NCBI GenBank assembly: GCA_006384855.1
Contig: VCJN01003326.1
Span: forward strand, 1 to 64,000
Direction of reading: 5' to 3'
Origin: Tetraselmis striata
Taxonomy: Eukaryota; Chlorophyta; Chlorodendrophyceae; Chlorodendrales; Chlorodendraceae
Length of the DNA stretch: 64,000 nucleotides
The number at the start of each line of letters is the position of its first letter. The first letter of the stretch is position 1. The position numbers were made by a program, and so were the translations under genes. Under the pieces are notes generated by a model, which worked only from the letters and a program-made list of their open reading frames with translations, made no database searches and had not been told where the DNA came from. Shown piece after piece: positions 28,164 through 55,758 of the stretch.

Positions 28164-29088
28164 GTGACATCGCATCGCCAGGTGGGTTATTGATGCGGGC
28201 AGACATGCCTGGAAGTAGAAGCCCGGGCGGTGCTCCCAGGGAGAGAGGGCGGTTGTAGTGCGCAGAATGCCGTGAAACCGTAGCAACTGTAGCGCTGCCA
28301 GACAAAGCCTCGAGCGCCGTCACGCTGTCTCCAGATCAATTGGCAAGATCCAGACCCTTTCCGGCGCTGCTGTCTTGGAGACGGCCCATTTGCTTCGCCG
28401 ACCGGATGGTGATACCCGAGCAGCGGGTCGAAGCTGCACCTAGCGGACAAACAAACCATTGCCCGCCTGGAGCTCTAAGCTGACAAGTCGCGGAGACGGA
28501 CACAAGCCGCAATGTCATCGCTAAAAGGTTGAGGAGGGCTGCAGGGTTACAGGAAGGAGGAGGGGCTGGGCACCACATGAGGGTGGCCGGTAGCTTGATC
28601 TGCAATTACACAATGTGTTTCCCATGGGGGCTAGAGGTATCAGCAGGCCTCAGAACAACTCAGTCTGGGCGGAGGAGAGCAGCAGACTAGCATGCTGTAA
28701 AAACAATGGTCCCACGTGTCGTGCGGAGCCGGGCGGAGCAGACGCTGACCCGGGACCCCAGCAGGCGTCCGGCCCCCCGAGCTCCGGCTGCCCTACTCGT
28801 CTCATGGAAACTGGCAAGAACTGATAACGGTCCCATGGAAAATGCCCCGCAACAGGAAGCGCTCGCTGTTTTCTGCATTGCCGGCGCGCCGAGTCGGAGC
28901 ATGTTGCACTTTGTTGCATGCTGATCGGTGTTGGTGTGCCAAGGATCATACGGGAGTGCCAAGGATACGCATCGACGTCTTCTTCTCGTTGGTCGTAAAT
29001 GCACAGTGGTCAGCGGCTTCGCGTGCACGTCGTCCCGCATTTATCGCAGAATGTGGCATGTGGGATGTGACATGGGCCTCGCTGCTTG

Positions 29089-29385
29089 CCAGACTTAGGC
29101 TTACGATCAATAAGGTATGTCGCCCGCGCCGGAATTCCATGATGCCGCCGCCTCACTTGGGCCTGGCGGCGACATTTCAGTGATGTCCCCGCCCGCCTGT
29201 GAACCTCGCCAGTGAAAATATACTCCTCCACAGAATAATCTAGCTGCCCCAGGACGCAGCTGTACTCCCTGCCACAAAGCCCAGCAGCTGCCATGGAGGC
29301 AGCTGTACACCTCACCACGAATAAGTCCAGATATGATGATGCCCAGCAAAAATAAGGGAGTAGTAGCTATACACTTCGCCACGGG
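29089..29385 (+). repeat. About 300-bp direct repeat flanking the satellite, copy 1
   Basis: Nearly identical, with a few changes, to 35998-36298. Both contain GCTTGCCAGACTTAGGCTTA, GGAATTCCATGATGCCGCCG and AGATATGATGATGCCCAGCA. The two copies bracket the satellite block on the same strand. No clear inverted ends or coding capacity. Confidence 0.85.
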
Positions 29386-42689: not shown

Positions 42690-43315
42690 CGAGGTATTCG
42701 GCGACGCAGGCGATGTTAACGTAAATTCAAAGGCTACACGAATACCAATAAACTATCTTGCGTGGCTCGGTCTCTGTGTATGTGGTCGTCCCTATGTGCA
42801 GACTCGCGCCGTCCGTCTGTCGTGATTCTGGCTCTACCGGGTAGCGAGTTCTGGTGTCGTCAAGTTGTCAGCTGATAGCGGTTTCTGATGATGCAAAGAC
42901 AGCAGGTTGGCATATGTCGTTGATTGATCACGGGTGCTGCGCGCATCGCAGTGCATCGCCATGCTGCGCCCTCACCTGTCGACCTGTCGTAGCAGCAGTG
43001 CGTCGTCGTGGCGCGATGCACCTAGTCACTGCAGTGGTCGGTCGAGCGACAGCCGCCGCCGACCGCTCCTTGATTTTGTACGAGCATTTATATCTAAATA
43101 AGGACGAAAGATTGATGTGATGTTAGTCGCTGTTATAACGCATACCATGTAGTGGATTAGCGTAGACGTGGCACCTCTTGCGGGATTGTATCATCGGTTG
43201 TTCCTGGTACAGTACTCATAGTATCTGTATGGAATATGAAAACTCGATTCTTTCTGGAAAGTCCTAGTACCGTTCTGGCACCTGAAAGGACTACAAACAT
43301 GTAGTAACATGAGCT
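42690..43315. other. Upstream region of the renalase-like gene
   Basis: No gene, repeat or RNA was recognised; presumably it holds the promoter of the minus-strand gene. Confidence 0.4.
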
Positions 43316-43460
43316 AGCTGCAAAAGGCGATCAGGAAACCACCCGAATAGGCAATAGAACACGTCCACTACAGCAATTGCGCAGTGGAAGCAGCACCATA
43401 AGAGGGTGTGGAATGAGCACATGCGCATGCAAACGCATCAGACTTGGCCGTCTGCGCTCC
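43316..43460 (+). repeat. Dispersed repeat family D, copy 1
   Basis: GCAAAAGGCGATCAGGAAAC, AGGCAATAGA, ACGTCCACTACAGCAATTGC and GCATCAGACTTGGCCGT occur here and, reverse-complemented, at 61095-61240, about 90% alike by eye. Transposon class unknown. Confidence 0.75.
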
Positions 43461-43724
43461 GGCAAAGAGAATGCCGCCCATCAACTAAGGTACCATGCAC
43501 GCAAGTTGAGACTCGCTACAACAACCCCCGCCGCGTGCGCGACATGTGATGGTCGCGGAACTTAGCGGGCTACCCTGGCTGACAACAAAGTTTCGAAGAG
43601 CCTGCACGGACTGACCACGAAGGAAGCATGAAGTCGGGGCGGAAAGACCGCCAGGGAAGTTGCGCACATCAATTAACACCGCGAAGATGTAGACCACCGT
43701 TAAATCGGATTTTCCGAGTACTCC

Positions 43725-44639
43725 TCAACCACAAAAGGGTAGTATCGGTGAACACCCTGCACCGGGGCGGAAGACGCCCGGTCCGCCGCTAGCTTGTTGC
43801 GCTCCGCCTCGGTCGCTGCGATACCCGGGGTGCACCAGCCAGCGGGGGTTGTTGCCCCAAGTGGGGGTCGTGGAGGACACGCACGCGAAATCGATCATGT
43901 AATCGCCCCCACACTCCCCCAGCGTCAAATCTGACGGCCGCGAACGGTCCGTTGGGCGCAGCCCTCTCGTCTCAAGGGTCAAATCGCCGACTCCCGAGCG
44001 GTCCCCGTCGAGCACCGCCCCCACTTCAATCGCCACGGAAGCCCACAGATTCTTCAAAGCGGTATGCACGCGGTGCTTGTAGTTTGCAACGGGGCGGATG
44101 GGCAGATGATCCACGACGAAATTTGTGGCATTCCGGTTGGAGCCATCCGTAGAGCGAAGCCATAAAGGGTCAATACCACACGTGGGGCCAGGGCATACAC
44201 GTAGTCGTGACAAGCGCGGAACCCCGGCGCGGACGACGGCCCAGCACCCGCGCGCAACGGCGGCCGAGTAAGCAGCATCCATGGGGAATCTTGCGGGCTG
44301 AGTCGTGATCCAACTGGAAAAGCGATAGGGAGCCCGGCGGCCCGCACGCGCTGCACAGCACGCGCAGGGTTTCACGTTGCGAGGCCGCGGCACCAATACG
44401 CAAGAAGCCAAGCGCGAGGGCCACGAAGTCACGAAAGCGAATCGCACGGCTGAGGTGGCGTTGGACAGCCATGGTCGTCGTGGGTTGATCATCGGAGGCA
44501 GCACCCGAACCCGTACCCGAGGGCGGAGCTGTAGTACCGCCTGGCTGTGGTAAGTTCTAGTAGGGAAGGAGTTGCCACTGACGGAGGGGGTGCCACTTAT
44601 TCGCGGGACGACAGTATCTTGAGAGCTACAAAAGCGCAT
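43725..44639 (-). CDS. Retroelement-like C-terminal fragment, ORF of 304 codons
   Basis: A long open frame on the minus strand. Its second half, with NYKHRVHTALKNLWASVAIE, a gap, then RSRPSDLTLGECGGDYMIDF, resembles the small domain often found at the end of algal non-LTR or related retroelement polyproteins: a basic helix with H-x2-H-x-A, a Glu, then RPxDl...ID, a possible PD-(D/E)XK-like nuclease. The first half (Arg/Pro-rich) shows no reverse transcriptase, so this would be a truncated remnant. A neighbouring frame (44472-44170) is also coding-like, suggesting a frameshift. The assignment is from pattern memory only. Confidence 0.3.
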   Translation of the reverse strand: MRFCSSQDTVVPRISGTPSVSGNSFPTRTYHSQAVLQLRPRVRVRVLPPMINPRRPWLSNATSAVRFAFVTSWPSRLASCVLVPRPRNVKPCACCAARAGRRAPYRFSSWITTQPARFPMDAAYSAAVARGCWAVVRAGVPRLSRLRVCPGPTCGIDPLWLRSTDGSNRNATNFVVDHLPIRPVANYKHRVHTALKNLWASVAIEVGAVLDGDRSGVGDLTLETRGLRPTDRSRPSDLTLGECGGDYMIDFACVSSTTPTWGNNPRWLVHPGYRSDRGGAQQASGGPGVFRPGAGCSPILPFCG

Positions 44640-44862
44640 GTTGTGACGGTATTCGCAGCACTCGTACCACCGATAGGACGCGATTGCTGGGCAGCAGAGG
44701 CGGCCTCACCAGTACCAACTCCATGGGGAGAGGCCGTAAAAGGAAATGTGGTGACGCGCAGTCCTCCGCTAGTGATGGTACCCTACGGGCCGTAGTACCA
44801 GCTGATGGATCCGGTCCAGCGGTGGTTGTAGCATTACCGACCGTAAGTAACTAAAAGATCTC

Positions 44863-45366
44863 GTGGGCGTGCCCGTACGCGGCGCGTGTGCGCGCTCCAC
44901 ATCTGCTTGCGGTAATGTGGTGAGGGCCCATACATTCTCGTATACGCGGCGCGTCTCGGACTACAAACATCGTCCCCGCATGCAATACATACCGAACGTT
45001 TCAACATGCAATCGAGTCTGGTTTTGCCAAAAGGGTGCGGAGGCTGAAGCGGAAAGGCGCCATTGTATGGCTAGGAAGGTTCAGCAAAAGGAGGGGAATG
45101 TCGGAGGAGGAGCCCGCATGGCGGAGGCGGAAAACGGGAGGGCGCTGCCGAAGGCAGTGAGCTGGAAGGTGGCAGACGAGCTGTTGGTGGCTGTCCAAAG
45201 TAGCTCCCCGGCCGGGAGCGCATGGCTCGTGGGCGATGGGGCAGCCCGTACTAAAACCCGATGGTACTACTTCATCCCTAGCTGGTTATTAAAACCACGA
45301 ACAGACCGTACGGGTCGCACCAGGACAGTTAAGGTCGTTATGGAAAGCCCATATAAACACGTTTAG
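44863..45366 (+). CDS. Hypothetical ORF between short direct repeats
   Basis: A 167-codon open frame with a Glu/Ala/Lys-rich middle (EAEAERRHCMARKVQQKEGN) and MAEAENGRALPKAVSWKVAD. A direct repeat, TTTCAACATGCAATCGAGTC plus TGG(T/G)TTGCCA, occurs at 45000-45032 and again right after the stop at 45370-45402, as if the second half of the ORF had been duplicated or inserted. No family recognised. Confidence 0.25.
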   Translation: MGVPVRGACARSTSACGNVVRAHTFSYTRRVSDYKHRPRMQYIPNVSTCNRVWFCQKGAEAEAERRHCMARKVQQKEGNVGGGARMAEAENGRALPKAVSWKVADELLVAVQSSSPAGSAWLVGDGAARTKTRWYYFIPSWLLKPRTDRTGRTRTVKVVMESPYKHV

Positions 45367-53031: not shown

Positions 53032-53827
53032 GTTAACAAAGGATTGGTGAAGTTGGCGGGATTCGAAGAAGCTCAGCGTGGACTCTGGACAGGAGGGGGT
53101 GGCTTTGCGGCACGGTATGATGGTGGAGGCGAGGGTGCTGGTTATTGAGGGGCTCGGCCTGCTTATGCTCTTACTCTTAGCGACCAGGTGAGGGGACATG
53201 TGAGGAACCGCCGTAAGCCCGTAACCGCTGCAGCACTACAGGTAAAATCCAAGGAAGGATTAATAACATGTAAGCAGAAAGGATTCGTTAGAGGTCAGTA
53301 TTAAGGATGATTACATAATTATGATGCGGCTTGCTGTGTTGATCTTTTAGCACGTACCGGTACTGCTTTAATTATATAGCGGTGGATTCGTTACTGGTTT
53401 TTTTGTAATTCATACCAGTACCCGTACTCGCGCAGTACGATTATCAGTGACTATACCGATATAATGAATACCGATATAGTGAATATACCGATATAGTGAA
53501 CCGGGGGGGGGGGGACGGATTCTTAACACCGGGAAAAATCCCTATGTATACCCCTATAATAAACTTACCAATATAATAAACTTACCGCTATAGTGAACGG
53601 GGGGGGGGGGGGGGGGACACAATGCCCCAAACTATACCAATATAGTAAACTTCTCTACATAACGGCAGTGTTGCCGACGCCGAACCCGGCCGTTGGCGTG
53701 TTCCGATAGCCGGTACCGTTCCAGTACGGGCGCAGAGGCCTCTACAGCCACTCGGCGGCGGCGGCAGCGGCGGCACATTGCGCCCACCGCCACTCAACTG
53801 CCCCACCGCGTCTGTCGCCATCGCGCC

Positions 53828-55415
53828 ATGGCGACGCCCACCGAGCAGCGCTGTTCCTATCTAGACAACTGCAGGATAAGGCCTAGAGGGCCTCAACCCA
53901 GCCTAGAGCGCTGTGGCGCGCAAGGGTGCAGCAACTTCCTGCACCATCTCTGCCAGGCGGAGTACGAGGCTGCCCACACGGAGCTCGATCCTGGCGAGTT
54001 GAACAAGCGTTGCCTGCCATGCTTGGCCAAGCCCAGTAAACAACCCGCACCCCAGCACGCTCCCACAGCAGGGGGCTTGCAACCGACTCGCCGTAGCCCA
54101 CGCGTCGCTGCTTCGTCGCAACGTCTTTCGCAGTCGAGACTATCCTTGGGCGGACCGAACTCAACCGCCGCAGCGTCCAGCCCCCCCCCGGTGCGCTCAT
54201 CACCGCGCCTAGCATCGCGCCAGCAGTCAGCCGCAGCCGCCAGCCAAGCAGCCGCGGGCTCCAGCCTATTAGCGACCAACGACTCGACAGCCAGACAGCT
54301 AGACCTTAGCGCAAACGACTCAGCCGCCAGCGAGGCTGCCAGTGACGATGAGCTGCATGCGAGTGATGCTGAGCAGCAGCCGCGGCGTCGTGGGCGGCAG
54401 CCAGGGCAGCGAGTAGCGCCTGGGCAGAAGCGCACCTCCCTTACTGTCGACCAGCAGGTTGAACTCCTGAAATATGTCGAGAGCTTTGCAGTCGGCGATA
54501 GGCCTAGCTTCGTTAACATTGCGATGTGGGCGAAAGAAACCTTCACGCTGAAAGCCCCACCTTCCAAGGGCTATATTTCCAAGCTATTGAAAGCCAAAAG
54601 CACCCTCTTGAGTAAGTATTTTCCTTGCCTGCTGTGCACTTGTGAATACATTAAATATTGCTTATCTGCCGCCGCTGCCTATGCACTTTCTTTATATGTA
54701 TTGCCAATGTGCCGTTGCTAACATTCACTCATGTTGTGTACAGGCACACACTCCTCTCTCAGCTCTAAGAATGCATCCCGCAAGCGCAAGCGGTTTGCCT
54801 ACAGCGAGCCGCAAGCGCGGCTGGAGGAATTGCTGCTGGATTGGATACGCCATCACGACGCCACTCATGGAGGCAAGGTTCCATTAAGTGACATGATGAT
54901 TCTGGAGCAGGTAAGCCCGCGCGGTGTATGTTTAGAGTGTTGTGTGCTACTTTATTTGTTAGTCAATGGCATTGCCGTATGCAGTGTAGTGATGCGTGTT
55001 GTGTGCTTTCATTCAGGCCAAATTGCTTGCAGCGGGGAATGAGTTGGTGTTTGATGAAAAAAAGTTCAACTATTCTAGCAAATGGTTGCTGAAATTCAAG
55101 CAAGCCAACAACATCAACCGGATGCGCTTTCACGGCGAGGCAGCCGACGCAGACCTGGAGAATGTGGCTGTTGTCCGTCAGCCAGAGAGGGCACCCACAT
55201 TGCAGGAGGTTAGGGGGCTTGTGGAGAAAGTTTTCTTGTTTGTGACTGAGAATGCGGAACGAGTGAACGCATCAGTGATGGTCCGAGACTACAACAGTCT
55301 CTTTGCTGTGGATATCCTGCGTGAAGGCTTGGCTGCCATGCACACGTCAAACCGCACACGGCAGGCCTCCGTCCGTGAATTCTTCCCTCCCGCTCCCCGC
55401 CCCCCAGCACCGTAG
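53828..55415 (+). CDS. Pogo-derived DNA-binding protein lacking the DDE domain
   Basis: Exons 53828-54611, 54744-54910, 55017-55415 join in phase; 449 residues. Residues about 9-65 form a Cys/His-rich, probably zinc-binding module (CSYLDNC, ERCGAQGC, HHLCQAEYE, RCLPCLAK). A Ser/Ala/Gln-rich linker follows. Residues about 200-260 form a psq/CENP-B-N helix-turn-helix (KRTSLTVDQQVELLKYVESF), and about 280-360 a CENP-B/Tc5-type second helix-turn-helix (ARLEELLLDWIRHH, KWLLKFKQANNINRMRFHGE). A pogo transposase would continue with about 200 residues of DDE nuclease; here only about 75 remain, ending RQASVREFF, a PIP-box pattern (Q-x-x-h-x-x-F-F). PCNA-binding motifs are known at the ends of pogo-type transposases. 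The start ATG has a good context; TGTAA lies at 55450-55454. Confidence 0.8.
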
Positions 55416-55449
55416 TCACTCCTGCCCTCTCCGGCACCTTAGAAAGCCA

Positions 55450-55454
55450 TGTAA
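55450..55454 (+). terminator. TGTAA poly(A) signal
   Basis: TGTAA 35 bases after the stop of the transposon gene. Confidence 0.5.
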
Positions 55455-55758
55455 AGTAATCAAGAACTCTTGAAACACAAATCCAGAGTCACATGTTGCC
55501 TTGCATGGGCACAGACTGCTACAGTGAACGGGGTCACCGTTACAATAAACAATAGTACCGATTTAGTAAACCGTTTACTATAGCGGTCGGGTGGGCCTGC
55601 TTATAATGAACACCGATATAGTGAACATACCGATATAGTGAACGGGGGGGGGGGGACGCAATGTTTATTATATCGGTATAGTCACTGTACTGGATGCTCG
55701 AGGATATCCGGCTCGGCGGGCGGACAGCAGACGCTCCCCGTAGTCGGGTGGCGGGCGG

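Follow-up and report, generated by a model that had tools for sequence, protein, structure and literature searches.

An open-frame, DDE-less copy of a pogo-like transposon in the green alga Tetraselmis striata and its full-length relatives in the same genome

The catalytic spacing of pogo-superfamily transposases covers the range DD29-56D in the parts of the survey by Gao et al. (2020; PMC7386202) that were available, and among green algae Fot-like pogo elements are listed there for one species. Tc1/mariner elements are reported as absent from Chlorophyta in the accessible sections of Dupeyron et al. (PMC7325037). A PIP-box and an interaction with PCNA have been reported for the Drosophila pogo transposase (Warbrick et al., 1998, as cited in the excerpt at hand of a review, PMC5371812). 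P elements which carry an internal deletion and have kept the DNA-binding domain can encode repressors, according to the available portions of two papers (PMC12393704; PMC7776569). Among the literature titles and abstract openings searched, no published description of the family presented here was found.

The element was identified in the window, the whole stretch of DNA analysed (64,000 nucleotides, contig VCJN01003326.1, positions 1 to 64,000). It spans 53445-55687 (2,243 bp) and contains on the + strand a gene of three exons with GT-AG introns, the spliced open reading frame of which has 449 codons for amino acids. Its features are the following (window coordinates).

53445..53468, + strand: left terminal inverted repeat, 24 bp, 96% complementary to 55664-55687; full-length copies have the same ends
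53454..53649, + strand: left subterminal TACCGATATAGTGAA-type repeats and G-tracts; 6 matches with at most 3 mismatches, the first beginning within the inverted repeat
53828..54611, + strand: exon 1 with ATG, PHD-like module, low-complexity linker and putative first helix-turn-helix (HTH)
53852..54022, + strand: N-terminal C-x5-C, C-x4-C, H-x2-C, C-x2-C module (PHD-like); PHD_NSD with E 0.25, below cut-off
54407..54610, + strand: putative first HTH, from conservation in divergent relatives; without Pfam match
54612..54743, + strand: intron 1, GT-AG, 132 bp
54744..54910, + strand: exon 2; the HTH_Tnp_Tc5 domain begins at about 54821
54911..55016, + strand: intron 2, GT-AG
55017..55415, + strand: exon 3; HTH_Tnp_Tc5 ends at about 55121 and is followed by the deletion junction, the C-terminal tail and the stop
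55180..55181, + strand: deletion junction; 1,200 bp (DDE domain, intron 3) absent in comparison with the full-length copy L010; 2-bp AG microhomology
55362..55385, + strand: PIP-box QASVREFF, C-terminal motif retained in divergent relatives
55450..55454, + strand: TGTAA polyadenylation-like signal (sequence motif)
55556..55655, + strand: right subterminal repeats and G-tract, from repeat matching
55664..55687, - strand: right terminal inverted repeat, 24 bp, 96% complementary to the left end

The inverted ends are intact, as stated in a preliminary description of this DNA, at a length of 24 bp (96% complementary) instead of the 20 bp given there. Repeats of the TACCGATATAGTGAA type are present at both sides of the element, and G-tracts follow them at both ends (53499-53515, 53600-53618, 55644-55655). 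The TA target duplication of the window copy is imperfect, with one extra T at the left. TA/TA flanks were found in 20 of 24 copies, namely those of the 38 mapped copies (see below) in which both ends matched the exact pattern. The family has the TA target duplication and the short inverted ends of pogo elements.

A Pfam scan of the spliced protein, with matches reported up to E 1, identified HTH_Tnp_Tc5, the CENP-B-type second HTH of pogo transposases, at residues 288-352 (E 2.6e-8, above the curated cut-off). The N-terminal Cys/His module gave the sub-threshold match to PHD_NSD, and no DDE family was detected up to E 1. The preliminary description had assigned both DNA-binding domains to the protein. 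This holds for the second; the first is without a Pfam match and remains putative, based on its conservation at 11 divergent places (32-50% identity); at seven of these a DDE match lies no more than a few kb away. Comparison of the two HTH regions with PDB sequences yielded a best E of only 0.81, and an NCBIfam scan a single chance-level match (E 0.13). An open three-exon gene with good splice sites and a TGTAA signal at 55450 could be confirmed, as could the presence of a PIP-box in the absence of a DDE nuclease. The catalytic domain is indeed skipped with the frame kept, but the protein does not pass 'almost directly' from the second HTH to the PIP-box, since about 80 residues lie between them.

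We searched the genome to which the window belongs (G000; 224,097,584 bases, about 224 Mb, in 2,903 contigs) with the element. The DNA search gave 74 matches with 40 of 159 candidates scored, so that copy counts are lower bounds. The preliminary description had proposed to look for longer copies that share the ends and encode a DDE domain. Such copies exist: five full-length ones were found, on contigs C2197, C284, C884, C2385 and C2552. They match the left part of the element up to its position 1737 and the right part from 1736; extra sequence of about 1.2 kb separates the two parts, and each aligned piece is 94-99% identical to the window copy. In the copy on C284 (L010) the extra piece is 1,200 bp long and includes a 114-bp intron 3. 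The loss relative to L010 therefore amounts to 362 codons plus this intron, which preserves the reading frame. Exons 3 and 4 of L010 contain DDE_1 (Pfam, E 2.1e-22), and the catalytic D residues are spaced by 112 and 43 residues, which corresponds to DD43D. The DDE_1 domain with DDxD, as known from pogo, is thus a property of the autonomous form represented by L010, and was lost from the window copy by deletion. A DDE exon hidden in the window copy, named beforehand as the observation that would speak against a nuclease-free protein, was rejected: none is found by Pfam, and the full-length sisters place the missing domain at 55181|55182. The full-length element of the family is about 3.45 kb long and has four exons encoding the PHD-like module, the putative HTH, HTH_Tnp_Tc5, DDE_1 (DD43D) and the PIP-box.

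The missing DNA alone, used as query (26 matches, 24 of 24 candidates scored), recovered the same five copies as complete matches together with partial ones; among the five it is 99-100% identical. In a protein search with the DDE part (38 matches, 47 of 47 scored) these five appeared at 99-100%, a partial copy of the same family on C127 at 93%, and divergent sequences at 35-64%.

Comparison with these five copies identifies the window element as an internal-deletion copy: its ends are those of the full-length copies and the inner segment is gone. We consider it, with a probability of about 93%, to be a young, internally deleted and non-autonomous copy of the full-length (about 3.45 kb) pogo-superfamily transposon of this alga. 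The deletion would have arisen by incomplete gap repair or by a slip at microhomology, as is usual in cut-and-paste elements, and the copy would be mobile only by means of a transposase supplied from elsewhere. The open frame would be a by-product of recency and of a one-in-three chance. The 449-residue protein, if it is expressed, would probably bind the element ends and could compete with the transposase.

One feature of the missing piece speaks against a simple deletion: it can be written as GT...AG. In L010 the deleted segment (L010:1952-3151) begins with GT and ends with AG, so that in full-length copies alternative splicing might remove the DDE segment (donor CAG|GTTTTG, acceptor GATGGAG|CC), a 3' cDNA fragment then having converted the window copy. 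Introns 1 and 2, still present in the window copy, would survive a cDNA conversion biased to the 3' side, which counts in favour of such an origin. Donor and acceptor are, however, unlike those of the element's own introns (donors GTAAGT, GTAAGC and GTAAAG), and the acceptor lies within a purine-rich run. Moreover, the GT-AG match was spotted after the fact. Among 59,353 enumerated break-point pairs with 2-bp microhomology in L010, 397 (0.7%) allow such a reading; if each of the about 24 mapped junctions had this probability, the chance of one would be roughly 15%. With so poor a splice-site context, and given how many junctions there are, chance is the better answer, and we regard conversion by a spliced form as very unlikely. 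Equally low is our estimate for the further-reaching idea that the nuclease-free protein is a regular family product of GT-AG skipping, fixed in the window copy, where it would act as the element's own repressor and bind both the ends and PCNA. Were it true, the nuclease-free protein would be the only intact protein still encoded by the family's mapped copies in the assembly.

A collapsed or mis-joined full-length copy might produce the same picture in an assembly, and repeat families with homopolymer tracts that vary among copies, as here, invite such errors. We nevertheless consider an artefact highly improbable: the junction is clean at a 2-bp microhomology, the flanks are colinear with a second contig (C2187, see below), and similar deletions are common in the family.

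To analyse these deletions, we mapped the window copy and 37 further loci, 38 copies in all, on L010. Five are full length and 33 are internally deleted, with about 24 junction classes; four of these classes recur (2, 2, 4 and 5 copies) and the other 20 were seen once. Copy sizes range from about 0.8 to 3.6 kb, and a few mapped copies are also without part of one end. The search with the PHD-like module points to additional short copies, so that the mapped counts are again lower bounds. Junctions were read in 29 of the 33 deletion copies, and 11 of these have 0-4 bp of shared sequence. The remaining 18 rows display apparent gaps of 1-85 bases, partly because the extension ends at the first mismatch; the window junction, which is among these 18, was read by eye and again in the comparison with L010. 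Two short classes, of about 0.81 kb (L022, L033, L034 and L036) and about 0.93 kb (L024, L025, L037, L042 and L045), comprise four and five mapped copies; they are MITE-like derivatives, probably moved in trans.

Several candidates for further DDE-less forms were rejected. An amplified DDE-less subfamily is not supported, the window junction having been found once among the 38 mapped copies (with 40 of 159 candidates scored, more copies may exist). C947 and C599 were considered as another DDE-less lineage, but in both the beginning of exon 4 is still present and contains an in-frame stop. The place on C1619 matches exon 1 only and has several stops, so that none of the three looks like a retained DDE-less gene. 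A check for relatives in viral contigs gave three pattern matches, of which 0 were confirmed.

Among the 38 mapped copies, the frame is open from the ATG to the PIP-box in the window copy only. All five DDE-bearing copies carry at least one lesion in the assembly, be it stop codons that come too early, a changed splice donor or an exon 1 whose length shifts the frame. That the sole open frame is DDE-less speaks against a simple deletion copy, as such a pattern is expected if the DDE-less protein were a useful product. However, C-tract lengths in exon 1 vary from 9 to 19, and lesions of this homopolymer type may partly be assembly errors. In three of the five full-length copies (L010, L011 and L015) a 452-residue stretch in exon 4 covering DDE and PIP-box is open despite the broken exon 1 or splice site. 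Judged by the identity of about 97-99% between the full-length copies and L010, and by the empty counterpart of the window insertion, the family probably produced transposase not long ago; this may have come from an unassembled copy or from one of the five that is misread. In an alignment of 12 copies, 2,065 sites could be compared; the window copy has five private substitutions there, of which one is coding, a missense change. With this single coding change, the open frame requires no selection, and the number also gives no power to test for selection on the protein.

The precedent of the P elements suggests that the in-frame deletion protein might be expressed, bind the subterminal repeats, hold PCNA and reduce transposition of the family, as a repressor of the KP type. 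The HTH regions and the PIP-box are undamaged, as are the start, the stop and the splice sites, and the predicted protein would have kept the DNA-binding part (the second HTH by Pfam, the first putative) and lost catalysis. Both HTH exon parts are retained, among the deletion copies, only in the window copy and in L013, the frame of which is broken; 31 of the 32 other deletion copies are without at least one HTH exon part. The window junction was found just once in 38 copies, a homologous locus is without the insertion, and the private changes are too few for showing selection. A junction seen once, an empty site and the youth of the copy give no support for a retained function, and we consider a repressor role unlikely, although less so than the splicing or assembly explanations.

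The empty site is found on contig C2187, where both flanks of the element adjoin each other (left flank 96%, right flank 93% identity). It reads CGATTATTGGATGC, while the window has CGATTAT-element-TACTGGATGC; this fits an insertion into TA, with one extra T at the left and one C/T difference. Window positions 35992-63715 are colinear with C2187:23412-52300, in pieces of 89-98% identity interrupted by insertions and deletions. An extra piece (28665-29383) overlaps the same stretch of C2187 and may be a repeat, and off-diagonal repeat matches occur within the colinear comparison at 43307-44883. Judged by its colinearity, C2187 would be either the other haplotype or a recent duplicate of the window region. 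The absence of the element from the colinear locus makes the insertion recent or polymorphic and argues against domestication. A gene on the way to host use had been proposed in the preliminary description, and an open frame without nuclease would agree with it. Yet the inverted ends are intact rather than lost, both arms are 97-98% identical to the full-length L010, the homologous site is empty, so that the gene is not fixed, and youth is evident from the one private coding substitution. These observations contradict domestication, which we rate as the least probable of all explanations considered.

The remaining peculiarities of the protein are features of the family. The Cys/His (PHD-like) module distinguishes it from other pogo elements, as had been claimed, but it was not added to the window copy, for the full-length copies have it too, as do divergent pogo relatives of the same genome. 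In the whole genome the module gave 142 matches (150 of 189 candidates scored). Sixteen of these rows are in 164-residue frames with 52-53% identity. One of them, on C44 (L057/L064), matches exon 1 only and no other pogo exon; a neighbouring 313-residue frame resembles the hAT dimerisation domain below threshold (E 0.0012). By sequence, the module may be common to different transposon superfamilies.

The PIP-box was analysed at 11 divergent loci. The motif Q-x-x-[VLIM]-x-x-[FY]-F is present in all six relatives with an aligned C-terminus (L048, L049, L051, L052, L053 and L056), the aligned C-terminal pieces being 34-52% identical. In L055 the motif occurs although its C-terminus did not align, and neither motif nor alignment was seen in L046, L047, L050 and L054. 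The presence of the box in divergent relatives makes it a property of the lineage, not of the window copy. Given what is reported of Drosophila pogo in the excerpt cited above, the motif is to be expected and not peculiar to this copy.

The apparent 'transposon without nuclease' is thus explained as a deletion copy of a normal element, of which five sister copies in this genome bear the nuclease. It belongs to a recently active pogo family of a green alga, the transposase of which joins a PHD-like module, two HTH regions, DDE and a PIP-box. The size range of about 0.8 to 3.6 kb and the empty homologous site would facilitate the study of activity and of mobilisation in trans.

Compared with known systems, the family resembles the pogo superfamily (pogo, Tigger, Fot-like and Lemi elements, as far as described in the available parts of PMC7386202) in HTH_Tnp_Tc5, DDE_1 with DDxD, TA target sites and short inverted ends, and its DD43D spacing falls within the DD29-56D range given there. 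It differs in the N-terminal PHD-like Cys/His module, in the three introns of the full-length gene and in its green-algal host. An rbcL gene on C1177, closest among solved structures to 1gk8 (Chlamydomonas), agrees with such a host, as does the TGTAA signal. With the Drosophila pogo transposase it shares the PIP-box, which in the window copy is part of a truncated protein and is putative from the sequence. An internal deletion that leaves the DNA-binding part and the ends in place is common to the window copy, KP and similar deletion derivatives of the P element (PMC12393704 and PMC7776569, in the portions cited). KP belongs to another superfamily and has been studied as a repressor, whereas the junction described here was seen once. 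To this extent KP may serve as a fair analogy for the window copy.
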